Shown: positions 7,655 to 23,133 of the stretch, piece by piece
How the letters are laid out: each line of letters starts with the position of its first letter
How positions within the stretch are numbered: the first letter of the stretch is position 1
Assembly (NCBI GenBank): GCA_017475415.1
Contig: JAFVFM010000221.1
Location: 1 to 23,291 of the forward strand
Length of the DNA: 23,291 nt
Origin: Solobacterium sp.
GTDB taxonomy: Bacteria; Bacillota_I; Bacilli_A; Erysipelotrichales; Erysipelotrichaceae
Reading direction: 5' to 3'
Notes under the pieces: model-generated
Told to the model about the DNA's origin: nothing
Seen by the model: the letters and a program-made list of their open reading frames with translations, nothing else
Database searches by the model: none
Made by a program: the position numbers and the translations under genes

Positions 7655-9823
7655 TTAATTCATCTCACTTTTCTTATGCAGAGTTGGATGCCCAGCCATA
7701 ATACGCTTCACTCCATATGGATGTGAGAAGGCAACTTCCACAAAGCCATCTGCACAGGATAACACAACACCTTCGCCGAATTTATCATGCACAACAGCTT
7801 CCCCCTTATTAAAACTAATATTTGCCGCACTACGCAAGCGCTCACTAAAGGATGGTGTTCTTACTTCTTCATGGAAGGAAGAATGATACATTCCTTTCTC
7901 TACTTCTTGAGAAACGCCCATATGTTCTATATAAGCTTCATCAATTTCTTTGATAAAGCGTGAGGTCGTCCTTTGTCTTTGCAAGATATAACTAAAGCCA
8001 CCAGCTTCGGTTAGAAATAATTTATTCTCAGCTCGTGTAAAAGCAACATAAGCTAGACGCCTTTCTTCTTCTATTCCCTTTTGTAAGCCCTCATTCATTG
8101 ACCGTTCATTAGGGAAAATACCTTCATTCATATCCGTCACAAAGACGGTATCAAATTCTAAGCCCTTTGCGGCATGTACAGTCATTAATTGAATAAAATC
8201 AGAACTCATTGTTTCTTCACGATCACCATATAGCGATACCATTTGTAAATATTCATCTAAATCACTGTCTGGATTTGTTTCACTGAATTCTTTCACATCA
8301 TCAATTAACTCTTTGATATTTTCAATACGATCTAATTCTTGTTCTTCCTCTAACATTGCTTGATAGCCACTATCTTGCATAATATGCTCAAATAAGGCAA
8401 AGACTTCCATCTCACCGCCTTGTGCAAGTTTACGCCATGACTCCACCTTTTCCACAAAAGCAGCTAATGTCTTTTGCGCCTTACCACTTACTGGTATTTC
8501 TTCCTTTAACAATTCATAAATGCTCAAATTCTTTTCTCTAGCTCTAGCGATTAATGTATCCATTGTTTTATTGCCAATACCACGCTTAGGCTTATTGATG
8601 ATTCTTCTTAAAGCTAAATCATCTCCATGCGTAACCATGCGTAAATAACATAAGGCATCCTTTACTTCCATACGCTCATAGAAACGCACACCACCATAGA
8701 TGATATAAGGGATTCTTTCTTCAATAAAAGCTTTTTCTAAAGGACGCGATAAATAATTTGAGCGATAGAGTATCGCTATATCATGATATTGCATACCCCT
8801 GCTATGTAGTTCTTGTACCTTACGCGCAATCCAAGCTGCTTGATATAAATCTGTAGGACTAGCGTAATGCGTAATCTTTACATTACTTTTTTTCTGTGTA
8901 AATAATTCCTTCTTTACACGATTATGATTATTTTGGATTACGGAATTGGCACCATTTAATATCGCATCAGTAGAACGATAATTTTCATTTAAAATAATGG
9001 TCTTTGCGCTAGGATACTCCTTTACGAAATTCATGATGATATTTACATCAGCACCACGCCAAGTATAGATAGTTTGGTCTGGATCACCTACCACATATAA
9101 AGAGTTGTCTTTCGCAGCCAATAAAGTAATTAATTCATATTGAATGGCATCAATATCCTGGAATTCATCTACATGGATATAGGCAAAGCGTCTAGACCAT
9201 TTTTCTAATATTTCCGTGTGTTTTTTAAACATCTTTACGGTTTGGATAATTAAATCATCAAAGTCTAAGGCATAGAGGGCGTTTTGTTGGCGAACATAAT
9301 AAGCATAGACTTCCGCCTTTGTTTTATCTGCTGAAAAAGAACCCGCTAACTCAAAGGCCCTTTCTACAGAAATATTTGCCCCCTTATTATTGGATATATA
9401 GTCCAACATTGCAGCATATGGATAAACAACAGAATCCAAATTCAATTCTTTATAGGCATCCTTAATAATGGTCTTTTGATCATCTCCGTCCCAAATCGTA
9501 AAGTTTCTCGGGAAGCCTAAAGACATAATATCTTCACGTAGAATACGTACACATAAGGAATGAATTGTACTAATCCAAGGAGTAGATGTTTCTTCTTTCA
9601 GCATTTCTTGTATACGGTTTTTCATTTCATTTGCAGCCTTATTGGTAAAGGTAATGGCTAATACTTTAGAAGGAAAAACACCAAGATCCTGGATAAGATG
9701 TACAATGCGCATAGTTAAAACACGCGTCTTTCCTGAACCCGCTCCTGCAACAATACGTATATATTGATCATCCGAAAGAACTGCATCTTTCTGATTATCG
9801 TTTAATTTCGCTAAATCAATCAT
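7655..9823 (-). CDS. pcrA: UvrD/PcrA-type superfamily 1 DNA helicase
   Basis: This 722-aa 3'-5' DNA helicase for repair and plasmid/replication fork work is normal in length for PcrA. Motifs in order: Q-motif LNDNQKDAV, Walker A AGAGSGKT (26-33), AITFTNKAANEM, Walker B DEFQDID (about residue 220), VVGDPDQTIYTWRGAD, LNENYRST, TVHAAKGLEFDTVFV and VAFTRAENKLFL. The C-terminus carries a Tudor-like segment (FNKGEAVVHDKFGEGVVL) typical of PcrA. GAGGTGA about 3 nt before the ATG supports the start. It is the first gene of the pcrA-ligA-gatCAB unit, with a -10 box at 9855-9850. Confidence 0.97.
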   Translation of the reverse strand: MIDLAKLNDNQKDAVLSDDQYIRIVAGAGSGKTRVLTMRIVHLIQDLGVFPSKVLAITFTNKAANEMKNRIQEMLKEETSTPWISTIHSLCVRILREDIMSLGFPRNFTIWDGDDQKTIIKDAYKELNLDSVVYPYAAMLDYISNNKGANISVERAFELAGSFSADKTKAEVYAYYVRQQNALYALDFDDLIIQTVKMFKKHTEILEKWSRRFAYIHVDEFQDIDAIQYELITLLAAKDNSLYVVGDPDQTIYTWRGADVNIIMNFVKEYPSAKTIILNENYRSTDAILNGANSVIQNNHNRVKKELFTQKKSNVKITHYASPTDLYQAAWIARKVQELHSRGMQYHDIAILYRSNYLSRPLEKAFIEERIPYIIYGGVRFYERMEVKDALCYLRMVTHGDDLALRRIINKPKRGIGNKTMDTLIARAREKNLSIYELLKEEIPVSGKAQKTLAAFVEKVESWRKLAQGGEMEVFALFEHIMQDSGYQAMLEEEQELDRIENIKELIDDVKEFSETNPDSDLDEYLQMVSLYGDREETMSSDFIQLMTVHAAKGLEFDTVFVTDMNEGIFPNERSMNEGLQKGIEEERRLAYVAFTRAENKLFLTEAGGFSYILQRQRTTSRFIKEIDEAYIEHMGVSQEVEKGMYHSSFHEEVRTPSFSERLRSAANISFNKGEAVVHDKFGEGVVLSCADGFVEVAFSHPYGVKRIMAGHPTLHKKSEMN

Positions 9824-9849
9824 ACTTCACCTCGAATCGTATGCGTTTA

Positions 9850-9855
9850 ATTATA
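9850..9855 (-). promoter_or_regulatory. -10 box of the pcrA operon promoter
   Basis: TATAAT on the minus strand, 26 nt upstream of the pcrA ATG, leaves room for a short leader with the GAGGTGA ribosome binding site. No good -35 hexamer is visible at 16-18 nt. The 79-nt intergenic region also carries the opposite-facing promoter for the methyltransferase gene, so the two are divergent with non-overlapping -10 boxes. Confidence 0.6.
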
Positions 9856-9887: not shown

Positions 9888-9902
9888 TGTTATAATAACA
9901 AC
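9888..9902 (+). promoter_or_regulatory. Extended -10 promoter predicting a leaderless mRNA
   Basis: TGT-TATAAT (9888-9896) is an extended -10 element. Exactly six bases (AACAAC) separate it from the ATG at 9903. With normal sigma-A spacing the transcript would start on the A of the ATG. No Shine-Dalgarno sequence is present. There is no clear -35. Confidence 0.65.
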
Positions 9903-10778
9903 ATGTTAAACGAAAAAAACACATGGCAAGATTATGCCTTATTAGATGCTGGAAATGGCGAAAAAATAGAGAGATGGAAGGATGTTATTTTAAGGCGCCC
10001 TGACCCGCAAGCCATATGGCCAATCAATACTCACGCAAAGACTTACAAAAATGTAGATGCGATTTACCATCGCTCTTCTAAAGGGGGTGGGCATTGGGAA
10101 TATATCCATCAAATTCCCGAAGCATGGACCATCCACTATCGTAATTTAACCTTCCGTATTTCCCCTACTGGCTTTAAACATACAGGCTTATTCCCTGAAC
10201 AAGCTAAGAATTGGGATTGGATGATGGACCTCATTAGTAAGCATAAAGATGAAGATTTACGTATTTTAAATCTTTTCGCTTATACAGGTGGTGCTACTTT
10301 AGCTGCATCAAGCGCAGGTGCGCAGGAAGTAGTGCATGTAGATGCCGCTAAAGGTATGGTGGAATGGGCCAAAACCAATCGTGATCTCTCTCACTTACAA
10401 GATCATAAAATTCGTTTTATCGTAGATGATTGTTTAAAATTTGTAGAAAGAGAAAAAAGAAGAGGTAGAACCTATCATGGTATCATTATGGACCCACCTT
10501 CTTATGGTAGAGGTCCATCAGGAGAAATGTGGAAGTTTGAAAAAGAAATCGTTAAATTAATTGATGCTTGTTTAGAAATATTTGATGAAGATGGCTTATT
10601 CTTTTTAATTAATAGTTATACAACAGGCATATCAGCAGTAGCTTTAGAAATGTTAATGAAATCTACTATTCAAGAGCGTTTAGGAAAAGGAACAGTAGAA
10701 TCTTTAGAACTCACCATTCCTATGGAAGAAAGAGATTTAGTATTACCTTGTGGGGTAAGTGGCAGATGGCAGAGGTGA
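9903..10778 (+). CDS. Class I SAM-dependent methyltransferase, RlmI/RlmK-like catalytic domain
   Basis: This 291-aa protein has the SAM-binding motif LNLFAYTGGATLAASSAGAQEVVHVDAA (about 127-155) and the catalytic-type motif IIMDPPSYGRGPSGEMWKFE (about 195-215), followed by LFFLINSYTTG. These match the catalytic half of RlmI/RlmK-type RNA m5C/m7G methyltransferases (Pfam PF10672 type). The N-terminal PUA domain of E. coli RlmI is absent and is replaced by about 100 residues beginning WQDYALLDAGNGEKIERW. An rRNA target is plausible given the RNA pseudouridine synthase gene that overlaps it, but this is inference. It is the first gene of a three-gene unit and is probably leaderless. Confidence 0.88.
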   Translation: MLNEKNTWQDYALLDAGNGEKIERWKDVILRRPDPQAIWPINTHAKTYKNVDAIYHRSSKGGGHWEYIHQIPEAWTIHYRNLTFRISPTGFKHTGLFPEQAKNWDWMMDLISKHKDEDLRILNLFAYTGGATLAASSAGAQEVVHVDAAKGMVEWAKTNRDLSHLQDHKIRFIVDDCLKFVEREKRRGRTYHGIIMDPPSYGRGPSGEMWKFEKEIVKLIDACLEIFDEDGLFFLINSYTTGISAVALEMLMKSTIQERLGKGTVESLELTIPMEERDLVLPCGVSGRWQR

Positions 10779-11446
10779 AGCTAGATATTATATATGAAGA
10801 CAACCACTGTTTATGTGTTGTAAAACCCTATAATATTCCAGTTAATGAAGATGAAAGTTTAGATATGGATTTACTCAATTTATGTAAAACCTATCTCAAA
10901 GAAACCTACAACAAACCAGGCAATGTCTATCTTGGCTTAGTCCATCGCTTAGATCGTCCTGTTGGTGGAGCTATGGTTTTCGCAAAGACATCCAAAGCAG
11001 CTTCGCGATTAAGTGAGGCAATGCGCCAAAAGAAAATCAAAAAAGAATATATCGCTATACTTGATGGCATCCCTCCACGCGAAGGTATATTGGAAGATTA
11101 TTTAGAAAAAAACCAAAAGACGAATACAGTGCATATTAGCACAAAAGATAAGGGTAAATATGCTAGGCTTTCCTATTCCATATTAGAAATAAAAGATGGA
11201 AAAAGCCTTGTATCCATTCATTTAGATACAGGTAGGCCTCACCAAATTCGTGTTCAATTCGCTTCTCGAGGTTATCCATTAGTTCACGATCAACGTTACC
11301 ACCCTAACCCTACCAAAGGCCAAATCGCCTTATGGGCTAGATGCTTAACCTTCAAACATCCTACAAAAGAGGAAGAAATAAAAGTTACTTGTTTACCAGA
11401 AAAGAAAGGACCTTTCGCTCAATTTGAATCTCTATGGCAAAAATAA
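10766..11446 (+). CDS. RluA-family RNA pseudouridine synthase
   Basis: This 226-aa enzyme isomerises uridine to pseudouridine in rRNA or tRNA; the site cannot be told from sequence. The catalytic Asp is D63 in the HRLDRPVGGAMVFAKTS motif, and RPHQIRVQFASRGYPLVHDQRY follows at about 165-185. There is no S4 domain. I chose the ATG at 10766, 13 nt inside the preceding gene; a TTG at 10748 in the same frame would add six residues with no family support. The ribosome binding site is poor (GGGGTAAG, slightly far), so coupling to the methyltransferase is likely. Its 3' end overlaps the next gene by 13 nt. Confidence 0.93.
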   Translation: MAEVKLDIIYEDNHCLCVVKPYNIPVNEDESLDMDLLNLCKTYLKETYNKPGNVYLGLVHRLDRPVGGAMVFAKTSKAASRLSEAMRQKKIKKEYIAILDGIPPREGILEDYLEKNQKTNTVHISTKDKGKYARLSYSILEIKDGKSLVSIHLDTGRPHQIRVQFASRGYPLVHDQRYHPNPTKGQIALWARCLTFKHPTKEEEIKVTCLPEKKGPFAQFESLWQK

Positions 11447-12600
11447 TAAGAAGAAGAAAATTGCGTTTTCGCAAAAGTATATTCGTACTACTCGCAATCC
11501 TTATTGCGGGTTCTTTCCTTATCTATTATGTTCCTAGAGAAAAGAAAAAAACACAGATTAAAGAAATGGGCTATCAAGATGCCTGTGTAGATATCTTATT
11601 AGAAGATGAAGACCTTTATTCTCTCATTAGAGAAAAGAATTATTATTCTAAATTATTAGAGAAGAAGATTATAGATGGCTCACTCAATATGGATTATATA
11701 GACCTCTATGCTAATATTCATAATAAAGAAGATATCTCTAACCTAGACCTTCTTCTCTATTGTCGCTTAGAAGATATGGGTTATGATAACCTACAATTAA
11801 ATGATTTATTCAATCGCTTATATTTCCATGAGCTTACTCCATTACTAACCTTTGATTACCAATGGGATGAACAATCCTATATTACCGATTGCCTGAATAA
11901 CCGCGATCACAATAGTGAAGATGCCTTCTCCTTAGATTATGACTATAAAGTACTCTTCCGAATAACCGAAGAAATAGAGCAGCCAGAAAAGATAAACAGC
12001 CTAATCAATAAGCAATATTATTTAAACCAAAGTTATGTGCCAAATGATTTAGAAAATATTAGTCTGCAATATGCTGTTGAAGGCCAACGCTTACGCAAAG
12101 AGGCTGCCGAAAACTTCAATGCCTTAGCGGAAAAAGCCATCAATGCTGGGCACGCCTTCTTTCTCGCAAATAGTTATTGGTCATATGAAGATTTAGATCA
12201 ACTATATAAGAATCAATTATCTGTTTACACACCAAATCAATTAGATGGCATGATTAATCGCGCCGGATATAATGAATACCAAAGTGGCCTATCTATGGGA
12301 ATTGTCTTTACCAATAACCAAGGAGATGACCTTTCAAAAAGCGAATCGTATCAGTGGCTATTAAATGAAATTGAGAATTATGGCTTTATTCTTCGCTATC
12401 CGAAAGATAAAGAAATCATCACAACAATACAAGCTAAACCTCTACAATTTAGATATCTTGGTAGCGAATTAGCACAAAAAGTAAATGCCTCTAAATTAAC
12501 TTATGATGAATATTATTGCCTTTATTTAAAACCTTGGCAAGATGAACAATATAAGCCAAAAGAGAATATATTAAAAGAGATAGAAGATTATGATGTATAA
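11434..12600 (+). CDS. Membrane-anchored VanY/M15B-fold protein lacking all catalytic residues
   Basis: This 388-aa protein has a basic N-terminus, one membrane segment (about 16-33), a helical region (about 40-185) and a domain (about 186-362) that aligns end to end with VanY-type D,D-carboxypeptidases (peptidase M15B): NKQYYLNQSYVPNDL, GQRLRKEAAENFNAL, ANSYWSYEDLDQLY, NEYQSGLSMGI, YGFILRYPKDKEIIT, KPLQFRYLG, LTYDEYY. Active enzymes read SEHQTGLAMDI and EPWHFRYVG. Here the zinc ligands His, Asp and His are Y282, G289 and Q338, the catalytic Glu is K335, and the Arg of SGYRSY is W249. The fold residues around them are conserved and the frame is open, so this looks like a maintained pseudoenzyme, perhaps a peptidoglycan-binding or scaffold protein. 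The start overlaps the pseudouridine synthase gene by 13 nt. Confidence 0.85.
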   Translation: MAKIIRRRKLRFRKSIFVLLAILIAGSFLIYYVPREKKKTQIKEMGYQDACVDILLEDEDLYSLIREKNYYSKLLEKKIIDGSLNMDYIDLYANIHNKEDISNLDLLLYCRLEDMGYDNLQLNDLFNRLYFHELTPLLTFDYQWDEQSYITDCLNNRDHNSEDAFSLDYDYKVLFRITEEIEQPEKINSLINKQYYLNQSYVPNDLENISLQYAVEGQRLRKEAAENFNALAEKAINAGHAFFLANSYWSYEDLDQLYKNQLSVYTPNQLDGMINRAGYNEYQSGLSMGIVFTNNQGDDLSKSESYQWLLNEIENYGFILRYPKDKEIITTIQAKPLQFRYLGSELAQKVNASKLTYDEYYCLYLKPWQDEQYKPKENILKEIEDYDV

Positions 12601-14277: not shown

Positions 14278-15798
14278 CTATACCAATGGCATAAATACAT
14301 TCAGTACGGCCTGCAATAAGCGTACAAAGACATTGGTTTTTTCTAATTTTTCTATCGTTATTTCTTCTGACACTTCTAGGCTATTTTCAAAGTTACCCTT
14401 AATCTTACGAATCGCTTGATCACTATAAACCAAAACACCATTTTCAAAGTGCAGATAATAACTACGATAATCCATATTCACCGATCCGACAACTGCTAAT
14501 TCATCATCTACTACAATATCTTTTGTATGATTGAAGCCTGGACTATATTCAAATATCCTTACTCCTGATTTCAATAATTCCATATAATTGGCTCTAGTAA
14601 TTTGGAAAACCAATTTCTTATCTGGTATATGCGGTGTTAATATGCGCACATCCACACCACTTTTTGCCGCAAGAATCAAAGTGTTTTTTAATGTTTCATT
14701 AGGGATTAAATAAGGTGTATTAATATAAATATAATTCTTCGCTTGTTTAATCATATTCATATGAATATTAAAGGCCACATCCTCCCCATCTGTAGGGGAA
14801 TCAGAATAAGGTTGATATACACCATCTGCATGAACACGAGGAGGTTGAATATGGTATTTTTGATAATCAATTGTTTCTTCCCCTTTAACATAACTAAGCA
14901 TACCAAGAAACATAACCGTCATAGACCATACAGCCTCTCCCTCTAATAAGATGGCGCTATCCTTCCAATAACCAAAGCGTTCTTCACGAGCAACATATTC
15001 ATCTGCGATATTTACACCACCCGTAAAGGCATAGCGATTATCGATAACGGTAATTTTACGGTGTGAACGGTTATTCATTTGTATAATGAAGGCTGGTCGT
15101 ATTGGATTAAAACGATATGCATGTATACCTAATTTCTTTAATTTTTTATCATAATGCCAAGGTAAAGTGATACTACCAAAATCATCATATATGATATATA
15201 CTTCCACTCCCTCTTTCACTTTCTCTTTTAAAATATCCAATATCTCATTCCAAAAAGAACCTGAATCAATAATAAAATATTCCATAAAGATAAAGTGTTT
15301 CGCCTTGCGCAAACGTTTTAAATATTCCTTAGCCCAAGCTTCCCCACTATTAAAATATGTACTCTTCGTATTTTGATATACGGGAAAGCCTACGGCATTT
15401 GCGCCATAGCGGAATACATTGGAAATATGTGTGTGTGTCAATTTGTTTTTTACTTCATTATTGGTTTTTTTGAGTAAATCCTCCATTCCTTTGGCAGCTT
15501 TGATTGTGCCATTCCTTAATTTCTTAGGCATCTTCTTATTAGCCGATAAGAAATATAAAGGTACACCAACAAAAGGAAAACCCAACAATAGGATACACCA
15601 CGCTATTTTATATGAAGACTCACGTGCTAAATTAATTTCATATAACACCAAAAGTAAAGCCAATGTATTCATAATTGGTATAGCATAATCAAAAGTACGA
15701 AAATGATAAAAGAAAAGTACTATTGCGGCTAATTGCAACAAAATTAAAGGAACAACAATCATTAACCTTCCCGTTAATATTTTAATTATTCGTCGCAT
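14278..15798 (-). CDS. cls: Cardiolipin synthase, phospholipase D family
   Basis: This 506-aa membrane enzyme joins two phosphatidylglycerol molecules to make cardiolipin. Hydrophobic N-terminal segments (about 10-30, 38-55, 64-84) form the usual Cls membrane anchor. Two complete HKD motifs are present: HRKITVID (246-253) and HTKDIVVD (424-431), each followed by the Gly-Ser/Gly-Asn pattern (GGVN, GSVN). The ending FMPLV is short and hydrophobic. The start codon has no ribosome binding site and lies six bases after TATAAT, which itself overlaps the stop of the upstream GNAT gene. It may therefore have its own leaderless transcript as well as being read from the GNAT promoter. Confidence 0.96.
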   Translation of the reverse strand: MRRIIKILTGRLMIVVPLILLQLAAIVLFFYHFRTFDYAIPIMNTLALLLVLYEINLARESSYKIAWCILLLGFPFVGVPLYFLSANKKMPKKLRNGTIKAAKGMEDLLKKTNNEVKNKLTHTHISNVFRYGANAVGFPVYQNTKSTYFNSGEAWAKEYLKRLRKAKHFIFMEYFIIDSGSFWNEILDILKEKVKEGVEVYIIYDDFGSITLPWHYDKKLKKLGIHAYRFNPIRPAFIIQMNNRSHRKITVIDNRYAFTGGVNIADEYVAREERFGYWKDSAILLEGEAVWSMTVMFLGMLSYVKGEETIDYQKYHIQPPRVHADGVYQPYSDSPTDGEDVAFNIHMNMIKQAKNYIYINTPYLIPNETLKNTLILAAKSGVDVRILTPHIPDKKLVFQITRANYMELLKSGVRIFEYSPGFNHTKDIVVDDELAVVGSVNMDYRSYYLHFENGVLVYSDQAIRKIKGNFENSLEVSEEITIEKLEKTNVFVRLLQAVLNVFMPLV

Positions 15799-15813
15799 GG
15801 GTTAATTATAACA
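15799..15813 (-). promoter_or_regulatory. Extended -10 promoter directly before cls, predicting a leaderless mRNA
   Basis: On the minus strand TGT-TATAAT (15813-15805) is followed by six bases (TAACCC) and the cls ATG. The hexamer includes the TAA stop of the GNAT gene. No Shine-Dalgarno and no good -35 are seen. It has the same arrangement as the promoter at 9888-9902. Confidence 0.5.
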
Positions 15814-16282
15814 AACTTTCTAGATTATACTCATAGATACACTTCTTCGTTTCACCCCTACGATATAACCAATGATCATATGGTACATCACACACCTTTA
15901 ACAATATCCCTCCTAAATATTCACAAGTTTTTTTTGAAGCATAATTATCAGGTGAACAAGTAATCAGTAATCTTTTCATTCCATATTTTTCCTTTGCGAT
16001 TTCAAATAAAATTAAACATGCTTGATAAGCATACCTATGCCCCCTATATTTTTCATAGATACGATAGCCAATATTACCTGCATAATATAATTCTTCATTC
16101 ATTCCTAAACGTAAATCGCATTTTCCTACAATTTCATTTGTATTGATTAAAACAATATTAAAATCTACTTGTTCATGTATAGAAGAAAAAGGCGATTCCT
16201 TCGTTATTGAACGTAAAACGAGCTTCACATCTAAATATGCCTTACTGGATTGATATTCTTCCTTTGAAATATGCCAAAACAT
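15806..16282 (-). CDS. GNAT-family N-acetyltransferase
   Basis: This 158-aa protein is a complete single GNAT domain using acetyl-CoA. Visible are the strand NEIVGKCDLRLG, IGYRIYEKYRGHRYAYQACLILFEIA (the pyrophosphate-binding turn, in the RG-x-H/R-x-A form), RLLITCSPDNYASKKTCEYLGG and the C-terminal VPYDHWLYRRGETKKCIYEYNL. The substrate is unknown; close relatives are often RimJ-like or small-molecule acetyltransferases. I start at the ATG at 16282. A TTG at 16300 would place the TATAAT promoter box inside the coding region. The gene is first in an operon with cls, a patatin-like lipase and a HAD phosphatase. Confidence 0.85.
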   Translation of the reverse strand: MFWHISKEEYQSSKAYLDVKLVLRSITKESPFSSIHEQVDFNIVLINTNEIVGKCDLRLGMNEELYYAGNIGYRIYEKYRGHRYAYQACLILFEIAKEKYGMKRLLITCSPDNYASKKTCEYLGGILLKVCDVPYDHWLYRRGETKKCIYEYNLESLL

Positions 16283-16299
16283 CCTACTTATATTATACA
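16283..16299 (-). promoter_or_regulatory. -10 box with a near-zero leader before the GNAT gene
   Basis: TATAAT at 16297-16292 (minus) lies nine bases from the ATG at 16282, so normal spacing puts the transcript start about 3 nt before the ATG. The AGG touching the ATG is too close to act as a ribosome binding site. TG lies directly before the hexamer without the usual one-base gap. Confidence 0.5.
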
Positions 16300-20709: not shown

Positions 20710-21255
20710 TTAATGATATTGTATACCTCTTATGATTTCTTCTGCTTTTTCTTTATTCACTAAAGTTTCTACAATGCATGAGGCAAATTCAATAGTCGCA
20801 CCCATGCCTTTCGCTGTGATAATACTTCCATCTTTTACTACTTTATCTTCTAAATGTTTTGCCCCATAATCACCCTCAAAGCCTGGGAAACAAGTATACT
20901 TCTTTCCTTCTAATATACCTAATTTACCAAAGATAGATGGAGCTGCGCATATCGCGCACAAACACTTTCCTTCTGCATTTGCGGAAAGTAAAGCTTCTGT
21001 TAATTCTTCATTTTCACCTAAGTGTTTCGTACCAGGCATGCCTCCAGGCAAGATGAGTGCATCATACATTACTACATCAATTTCTTTCCATAATTTATCC
21101 GCAACAATAAAAACACCATGACTACTTTCTACTTGGCATTCTTCTTCCATTGAAATCATATCAATGGTTAATCCTGCTCTACGCAAGACATCTACTGTAA
21201 TGAGGGCTTCACATTCTTCAAAGCCCTTAGCTAAAAAAATTGCACACTTTTTCAT
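20710..21255 (-). CDS. DJ-1/PfpI (ThiJ/YajL) family protein
   Basis: This 181-aa protein is normal for the DJ-1 subfamily. It has the conserved glutamate E16 in GFEECEA, LILPGGMPGTKHL, the nucleophile-elbow cysteine C103 in AICAAPSIFGKLGIL, and CFPGFEGDYG and ITAKGMGATIEFA. Relatives act as oxidative-stress chaperones, glyoxalases or deglycases, and sequence does not decide among these. I chose the ATG at 21255, which gives the normal family start (MKKCAIFLAKGFEE). The longer frame to 21294 would run through the typA terminator and this gene's own promoter. It is the first gene of the five-gene unit and is probably leaderless. Confidence 0.92.
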   Translation of the reverse strand: MKKCAIFLAKGFEECEALITVDVLRRAGLTIDMISMEEECQVESSHGVFIVADKLWKEIDVVMYDALILPGGMPGTKHLGENEELTEALLSANAEGKCLCAICAAPSIFGKLGILEGKKYTCFPGFEGDYGAKHLEDKVVKDGSIITAKGMGATIEFASCIVETLVNKEKAEEIIRGIQYH

Positions 21256-21271
21256 AGTTAGAATTATAACA
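21256..21271 (-). promoter_or_regulatory. Extended -10 promoter predicting a leaderless DJ-1 mRNA
   Basis: On the minus strand TGT-TATAAT (21271-21263) is followed by seven bases (TCTAACT) and the ATG. Transcription would begin at or one base before the A of ATG. There is no Shine-Dalgarno. The promoter begins 3 nt after the T-run of the typA terminator. Confidence 0.65.
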
Positions 21272-21273
21272 TG

Positions 21274-21299
21274 AAAAAAGGCTATGCCTTGCATAACCT
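21274..21299 (-). terminator. Intrinsic terminator of typA
   Basis: On the minus strand AGGTTATG-CAAGG-CATAGCCT forms an 8-bp stem (one G-U pair) followed by TTTTT. It overlaps the last base of the typA stop codon and ends just before the DJ-1 promoter. Confidence 0.85.
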
Positions 21300-23133
21300 A
21301 TTCTTCTTCACTTTCAACTTTACCGATTTCACGCATATGGCGCTTACGATCTAAAGCAGTTAAATACTTTTTACGAATACGAATATCTGTAGGTGTAATT
21401 TCTACCAATTCATCATCATTAATGAATTCAATCGCACTTTCTAATGTTAACGAGCGAGGTGGAACTAATTTCATTGCCTCATCATTACCTGTAGAACGAA
21501 CAGCTGTCATCTTCTTATTCTTAATTGGATTAACACCCATATCCATATTCTTAGCCGATACACCAATAATCATACCTTCATATACAGGTGTCTGTGCGCC
21601 GATAAATAATTGACCTCTTTCTTGTATATTCCATAAAGCATAAGTCATCGCTGCGCCTGTTTCTGTAGAAATCAAAGCCCCATTTTCACGTTGAGGTATT
21701 TCACCTTTATATGGCTCATAATCTGCTAGACGTTGTACAAGCGTACCCTCACCATGTGTCATATTGATAAAGTCAGAACGGAAGCCAATCAAACCACGTG
21801 TTGGCACCATATACGTTAATCGACTATAGGTACCTAAGTCTTCCATATTTTGTAGCAAACCTTTACGTACATTCAAGCTACTAATTACAGACCCTGAATA
21901 TTCGGTTGGTACATCAATTACCACTTCCTCTACCGGTTCACATGTTACACCATCGATTTTCTTAAGAATTACTTCTGGTCTAGAAACAGCAATTTCATAG
22001 CCTTCTCTACGCATTTGTTCAAGTAGAATCGTTAAATGCAATTCCCCTCTACCACTTACTTTAAAGGTATCGGTAGAATCTGTTTCTTCTACACGTAAAC
22101 CTACATTAACTTCTAATTCTTTATCTAAACGTTCACGTATATTACGACTAGTTACATATTTACCGGTTTGTCCCGCAAATGGGGAATCATTGACCATAAA
22201 GTTCATCGATAGAGTAGGCTCCTCAATCGTAATCATAGGCATTGGTTCATTCTTACCTACTGGGCATAATGTATCCCCAATATTAATATCTGGAATACCT
22301 GAAATCATACAAATTTCACCACATTGTACTTCTGGAACAGCTACTCTACTTAACCCTTTATAAACAAAGACTTGATTCGTTTTACCAGTATGTGAAGTAC
22401 CATTTGCGTTACAAACTTGATATTGTGTTGCTTCCTTTAAGGTACCTTTATAAATTCGACCAATACCTAATCTACCAATATAATCATCATAAGCTAAGGC
22501 ACTAATTTGCATTTGAATATCTTCATCCATAATATTTGGATAAGCTTGTGTATGATGGATAATTGTTTCAAATAAAGGAATGATATCTTCATTCGTATCT
22601 TCTACTTCATAACGAATTACCCCTTCTCTAGCTACACCATATAGAATAGGGAAATCTAATTGATCATCTGTCGCATTTAGTTCAAGGAATAAATCATATA
22701 CTTCATCAATGACTTCTGTTGCTCGTGCATCTTGTTTATCCATTTTATTGATAACAAGTATTGGGCATAAACCGCATTGTAAAGACTTTTGTAAAACAAA
22801 GCGAGTTTGTGGCATTGGCCCTTCAGAAGAATCCACCAACAGAATAACCGTATCTACTGTTTTAATAATACGTTCTACTTCTGAAGAAAAGTCCGCATGT
22901 CCTGGAGTATCGACAATGTTAATCTTATAATCCTTATAGGTAACAGAACAGTTCTTAGAATAGATTGTAATTCCTCTTTCTCTTTCTAAGTCATTTGAGT
23001 CCATAATACAATCCACTACCTTTTCGTTATCTTTAAACACATGACTTTGCTTTAAAAAGGCATCTACTAAGGTAGATTTACCTGCATCGACATGGGCAAT
23101 AACGGCAATGTTAATAATCTTTTGATACTCCAT
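21298..23133 (-). CDS. typA: Ribosome-associated GTPase TypA/BipA
   Basis: This 611-aa translational GTPase of the EF-G family binds the ribosome and aids assembly and stress or cold adaptation. The G motifs are intact: AHVDAGKS (13-20), [13 protein letters not shown] and NKMD. EF-G-like domains II, III and V follow, then the BipA-specific C-terminal domain ([32 protein letters not shown], with [22 protein letters not shown]). GAGGAGGCG about 6 nt before the ATG is a strong ribosome binding site. It is a single-gene unit with its own promoter and terminator, divergent from the tRNA-Leu gene. Confidence 0.98.

Follow-up and report, generated by a model that had tools for sequence, protein, structure and literature searches.

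Leaderless starts, including starts with an extended -10 element, are already known in Firmicutes. By 5'-end mapping, about 9% of the operons of Streptococcus pneumoniae D39 are reported as leaderless, and in the same species the output of a leaderless luc reporter was unchanged when a ribosome-binding site was added (PMC6212727). For S. pyogenes a share of 8.6% of mRNAs is given, with 54 of them leaderless also in S. agalactiae (PMC6431027). Zheng et al. (2011) describe, for TA-led (leaderless) genes, a TATAAT-like signal some 12 bp upstream of the start and predict leaderless genes with a TG-extended TATAAT in Lactococcus (PMC3160421). Few leaderless mRNAs are recorded in some other Firmicutes: 2 in Paenibacillus, 15 in C. 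difficile and less than 1% in two enterococci. A preliminary description of the DNA examined here had regarded such mRNAs as rare in Firmicutes; these low numbers agree with it, but the roughly 9% in three streptococci and the predictions for Lactococcus do not, and the statement is out of date.

The window, that is, the whole stretch of 23,291 nucleotides that was analysed, comes from the Solobacterium/Bulleidia branch of the Erysipelotrichaceae. Its putative leaderless starts resemble those of streptococci, in which extended -10 boxes are found among S. pyogenes promoters and the leaderless state is kept between species (PMC6212727, PMC6431027). The streptococcal starts were mapped experimentally and belong to a different order, whereas those described here are known from sequence alone. 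With the TA-led genes the window shares the TATAAT-like signal and the TG peak reported for low-GC genomes, and the exchange of Shine-Dalgarno (SD) and TA signals between orthologs, reported in Actinobacteria, is similar to the two states of the methyltransferase gene described below (PMC3160421). The geometry from the -10 element to the start codon is the same in Actinobacteria and Deinococcus-Thermus. The average predicted leaderless shares of these two groups, 19.2% and 39.4%, are higher, and their motif, TAnnnT, is looser (Zheng et al., PMC3160421). In the accessible portion of that article the Firmicutes named are Lactobacillales and Mycoplasma, and Erysipelotrichaceae are not among them (PMC3160421). 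Neither a report of leaderless starts in Erysipelotrichaceae nor a transcript-start map for the family was found in the open-access literature, nor, as far as its texts were available, a report of a leaderless cardiolipin synthase mRNA. Within the literature searched, the family, a mostly leaderless cardiolipin synthase gene (cls) and a methyltransferase gene with two predicted states in one genus would be new.

Putative promoter elements adjoining start codons in the window

The window has a GC content of 35.4% and belongs to an assembly of 1.43 Mb in 339 contigs, 70% complete, in which 16S rRNA was not found. The closest relatives of its methyltransferase, up to 72% identical, are from Erysipelotrichaceae or Solobacterium records, and the Bulleidia extructa protein is 64% identical.

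Table 1. Features of the window relevant to the architecture of its gene starts.
Feature	Position	Strand	Basis
Contrast: divergent pcrA-like gene, TATAAT (9855-9850) and ordinary SD (GAGGTGA) before ATG 9823	9823..9855	-	
Extended -10 (TGT TATAAT) and six-base gap	9888..9902	+	sequence read directly, orthologs
Class I SAM-dependent methyltransferase, RlmI/RlmK-like	9903..10778	+	all matches below family cut-offs
RluA-family pseudouridine synthase; frame overlaps methyltransferase gene end	10748..11446	+	below subfamily cut-off
LdcB/VanY-like carboxypeptidase-domain protein	11434..12600	+	below family cut-offs
Cardiolipin synthase, cls, predicted leaderless	14278..15798	-	TIGR04265 above cut-off
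Extended -10 (TGT TATAAT, 15813-15805) and six-base gap before cls	15799..15813	-	sequence, orthologs
Acetyltransferase-like gene upstream of cls	15806..16282	-	no NCBIfam match; GNAT by eye only
TATAAT (16297-16292) preceded by TTG, no TGn; nine-base gap to ATG 16282	16283..16297	-	
DJ-1 family gene, near-leaderless in the window, leadered in relatives read	20710..21255	-	TIGR01383 above cut-off
Extended -10 (TGT TATAAT, 21271-21263) and seven-base gap before DJ-1 family gene	21256..21271	-	

At the methyltransferase start, TGT (9888-9890), TATAAT (9891-9896), AACAAC (9897-9902) and ATG (9903-9905) follow one another directly on the plus strand, exactly as the preliminary description had read them: an extended -10, six bases and the start codon, with no SD. 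The recurrence that it had also noted is present at cls, which reads TGT-TATAAT-TAACCC-ATG (15813-15796, minus strand; TATAAT at 15810-15805), and at the DJ-1 family gene, with TGT-TATAAT-N7-ATG (21271-21253, minus strand); in the latter the gap is seven bases, and both are without an SD. Its wording "nearly so" for the start at 16282 was fair, the arrangement there being TTG-TATAAT, N9 and no TG. At all four starts (9903, 15798, 21255 and 16282) an SD-like word is absent from -18 to -4, and the best -35 has 3 or 4 of the 6 letters of TTGACA at 15-19 bp, none of them convincing. The three N6/N7 cases thus have TGn directly before TATAAT and a weak -35, and their spacing (N6, give or take about one base) would let +1 coincide with the start codon, which the spacing of the 16282 gene does not. 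In these three cases the AUG is also the only plausible start, apart from a weaker alternative at M13 of cls. The three exact cases and the N9 case compare with 21 called ORFs at least 100 aa long, and the share of about half of the transcription units given in the preliminary description is a loose estimate. TGnTATAAT-N6/7-ATG occurs 3 times, whereas 300 resamples from a first-order Markov model average 0.14, the highest of them also reaching 3.

The methyltransferase is the first gene in a three-gene run. The gene upstream of it is divergent, so that no read-through leader is available, and between the upstream in-frame stop and 9903 there is no ATG, GTG or TTG. For the acetyltransferase-like gene at 16282 a 3-nt leader is predicted. 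A further TATAAT lies before this gene, opening a 26-codon frame as TATAAT-N3-ATG (16377-16288, minus strand); it would place the transcription start just inside that frame and, as an alternative to the N9 start, would give the gene a leader of about 83 bases.

Upstream of the DJ-1 family gene, a short hairpin (seen by eye) and a T run follow the gene at 21298-23133 and precede the extended -10. The DJ-1 gene was considered as a conserved leaderless gene and rejected: all 16 relatives read, on the plus strand only and from 30 loci, carry an SD-like word by eye. In a further relative (L295) TATAAT stands at N9.

Spacing of TATAAT relative to ATG in related genomes

The distance was counted first around orthologs of the methyltransferase. 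The first 45 named loci were taken as the family (L031-L074 and L086; L068 and L071 are titled only Bacilli), and 42 with 538 called genes remained after three near-copies were dropped. Here TATAAT-N6-ATG occurs in frame 20 times, against a mean of 0.26 (maximum 1) for permuted hexamers, with zero cases at N2 to N5 and a second hump from N15. All of these loci surround the methyltransferase, and most matches are therefore its orthologs and those of cls. In 35 lower-ranking loci, mostly from other Bacilli (L087, L109 and L110 are titled Erysipelotrichaceae), N6 occurs 2 times against 1.74, equal to chance.

Because the named loci are centred on one gene, stretches not chosen for any gene were sampled from four genomes of the same genus, 79 in number with 988 genes and about 1.2 Mb in all. 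The control, as for the named loci, consisted of 19 other arrangements of the letters of TATAAT. The preliminary description had named the lack of an excess of TATAAT 6-7 nt before ATG as a ground for refutation; in these samples the excess is present, with 13 in-frame cases at N6 against a mean of 0.68 (at most 4 for any of the 19 permuted hexamers). The other spacings gave 0 at N5, 6 at N7 against 1.53 (maximum 9) and 2 at N8. By genome, the N6 cases amount to 5 of 111 genes (G012), 4 of 309 (G033), 3 of 325 (G002) and 1 of 243 (G007); two of the 13 lie 291 and 351 bases after an in-frame stop and may be internal ATGs. TGn precedes TATAAT in only 2 of the 13. It is not required for the N6 class, and the extended -10 holds for the window cases, not for the class.

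Among the 19 N6/N7 matches of the sample, 17 are neither the methyltransferase nor cls. Judged by eye from their N-termini, some of these genes look like YggS, DNA polymerase III alpha, an elongation-factor-like GTPase and an aminotransferase; YggS at N6 has support from two genomes. In a genome of the sister family (G037), a gene-based count gave 4 at N6 against 0.8, two of the four being copies of one gene.

In all 20 named N6 cases, which are partly orthologs, the ATG is preceded by C or T, and 10 of 11 sampled cases likewise have a pyrimidine there (11, not 13, as only the first part of each frame was covered); the background before called ATG starts is 405 of 701. Bacterial RNA polymerase usually prefers to start on a purine that follows a pyrimidine, and a pyrimidine at this position therefore fits a +1 at the A of the ATG.

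In the window's own genome, with frame and TG ignored, TATAAT-N6-ATG occurs 38 times against 25 in a backwards control, and TGnTATAAT-N6-ATG 8 times against 1. Thirty of the 38 matches became loci, 7 of them with TGn; of these 7, five begin frames of 90 codons or more, one is still open at the contig end and one is a 10-codon frame. No N6 case was found in 20 random contigs of this genome, 10 of them all N, with 40 genes in total, too few to be informative.

Two states of the methyltransferase start

Of the 75 methyltransferase loci, 20 were duplicates, identical over the first 400 bases, and 55 distinct rows remained. The -10 lies at N6 in 11 rows, at N7 in one, at N8-N14 in none and further out in 43. 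In 42 of these 43 the best -10 falls at N15-N28; in the remaining one (L056) the scan, limited to N30, settled on a weak word at N24, and the actual TATAAT is at N33. All 43 distant rows have an SD-like word, the weakest being GGTG or AAGG, and 11 of the 12 N6/N7 rows have none, the exception carrying AGGA inside its 7-base gap. A spacing of N17 implies a leader of about 11 bases, into which GAGG and its spacing only just fit. Within the genus, the methyltransferase gene thus appears to alternate between a leaderless start and a short SD-bearing leader. By parsimony at least nine state changes are required, but the tree has little resolution and does not reject one common leaderless clade (p-AU 0.127). 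The ortholog counts for the methyltransferase and for cls are not independent.

The 55 methyltransferases and 35 cls genes form a natural series of orthologs, with one gene in either state, from which the selective forces behind a leaderless start might be learned with no need to compare unrelated genes. The gut family Erysipelotrichaceae would be added to the Firmicutes that use such starts, and software that relies on the SD to place start codons may get such genes wrong in these genomes.

A fixed -10 distance at the cardiolipin synthase gene

Among 75 cls loci, 46 had a match and an ATG near the expected start. Nine identical ones were dropped, as were two (one distinct sequence, L049 = L240, TATAAT at N8) too close to the locus end, leaving 35 distinct rows that include several near-copies, so that the independent number is smaller. 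With tied words assigned to the smaller spacing, the best -10 lies at N6 in 27 of the 35 rows, at N7 in 4, at N8 in 2 (both weak), at N11 in Bulleidia extructa W1219 and at N18 in one (weak). None of the 35 has an SD, whereas in the sampled genomes 581 of 907 genes show, under the same rule, an SD-like word ahead of their first ATG. The leaderless state is thus probably kept at cls in most relatives.

An upstream stop lies between -7 and -44 in 27 rows, and in 6 of the 35 no upstream frame of 90 codons ends within 60 bases. As the stop varies or is absent, the fixed element is the distance from the -10 to the ATG, not the neighbouring gene. In the window, the stop TAA (15808-15806) of the co-directional acetyltransferase-like gene is embedded in the cls TATAAT, 7 bases before the ATG, and coupling could contribute there. 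The same overlap of stop and hexamer is seen in five other orthologs (L232, L250, L256, L257 and L259). In L231 and L251 the cls start overlaps or abuts the upstream frame and there is no -10 at N6; translational coupling is likely in these two.

Proposed initiation and alternatives

What is directly observed is the motif with its exact spacing, its excess relative to the controls, its conservation and the lack of an SD. Since the -10 hexamer spans -12 to -7, +1 falls on the A of the ATG when the gap is six bases. From this we infer the transcription start point, and with it the mode of ribosome binding. The housekeeping sigma factor would bind the TATAAT, which in the window is TG-extended and without a good -35, and transcription would begin seven bases after the hexamer, at the A of the ATG; for the methyltransferase, the start codon at 9903 is thus the predicted first transcribed base. 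A ribosome loaded with initiator tRNA would then bind straight to the AUG at the 5' end, without any SD contact. In this branch of the Erysipelotrichaceae the leaderless state would be a gene-specific option beside ordinary SD initiation. We assign a probability of about 0.87 to the window cases being leaderless mRNAs transcribed from the A of the AUG. The earlier proposal of a leaderless start from an extended -10 is supported by the N6 spike, the conservation in orthologs and the pyrimidine at -1; TGn is dispensable in the sampled genomes.

Termination-reinitiation from the acetyltransferase-like gene could instead account for the translation of cls, the TATAAT being merely the Leu and stop codons of that gene (TTA TAA T). 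The window and the five orthologs with an embedded TAA would fit this, as would L231 and L251 with their overlapping or abutting frames; in the remaining rows, however, the stop lies anywhere down to -44 or is absent and the -10 is still mostly at N6/N7, and the methyltransferase, whose neighbour is divergent, would be left unexplained. We regard reinitiation as improbable. Slightly less credit is due to transcripts that start further upstream and carry an SD-less leader, with the TATAAT beside the ATG an incidental word or a secondary promoter. Leadered initiation without an SD does exist in other bacteria, and TATAAT-like words are more likely by chance where gene starts are AT-rich, but incidental words would not cluster at exactly N6 with almost none at N2-N5, nor stay there in most cls orthologs, and every methyltransferase ortholog with a more distant -10 also carries an SD-like word.

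Miscalled starts, with translation beginning instead at an in-frame codon further downstream, seem very improbable. A candidate would be the second ATG of the window cls, at codon 13, which is preceded by GGGAAGG, yet M13 is found in only 15 of the 35 orthologs, and residues 1-12 share one recognisable pattern over all 35 rows, mostly MRR/MHR/MRK...ILTSRL-like. The N-terminal region right after M1 of the methyltransferase is likewise alike across its orthologs.

Further spacings and whole-genome counts

In the genus sample a small second spike was seen for TATAAT-N9-ATG, with 8 cases against 0.74 (maximum 3), five of the eight ending in GCT-ATG. Cases lie in L166, L173, L178, L292 and L300, all sampled genus stretches, and the N9 case of the window (16297-16280, minus strand) has AGG. 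In 40 genomes of the genus, TATAATNNNNNNGCTATG occurs 31 times against 7 backwards. The spike is absent from the named family loci (2 against 0.63). N9 may represent a class with a 3-nt leader. A broader reading, which we hold to be rather doubtful, is that the distance from promoter to start occupies only discrete states (N6/N7, leaderless; N15 and above, a minimal SD leader; N9, a 3-nt leader, often GCU-AUG) separated by jumps of about ten bases, the distance itself being a selected translation switch and not a by-product of compact genomes.

Pattern counts over whole genomes gave, for TGNTATAAT-N6-ATG against N3, 286 versus 62 in the window's genus (36 genomes; 16 in the backwards control) and 264 versus 129 in the sister family f2 (24 genomes; 51 in the control). 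N6 was also compared with N4 in 149 genomes of the class. Two members of the genus gave 8 versus 1 and 13 versus 0, and 12 members of the family's other genera gave 144 versus 84, with the opposite in G101 (1 versus 13). Five sister-family genomes showed no excess (66 versus 71), and in families f6, f9, f11, f12 and f22 N4 exceeds N6 overall. With counts this mixed in other families no class-wide conclusion is drawn, and outside the genus such counts were rejected as a leaderless survey, as frame-free counts are no measure of leaderless starts there. In the same five families of Bacilli, TGNTATAAT-N4-ATG is overall several times commoner than its backwards control.

Identical 18-mers of the N6 type recur within single genomes, in five places in G041 (C1) and in C23, C33, C60 and C96 of G059 and C42, C46 and C79 of G131. 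Several of them lie 36-58 bases from contig coordinate 1, a pattern that an insertion sequence with a leaderless promoter would produce.
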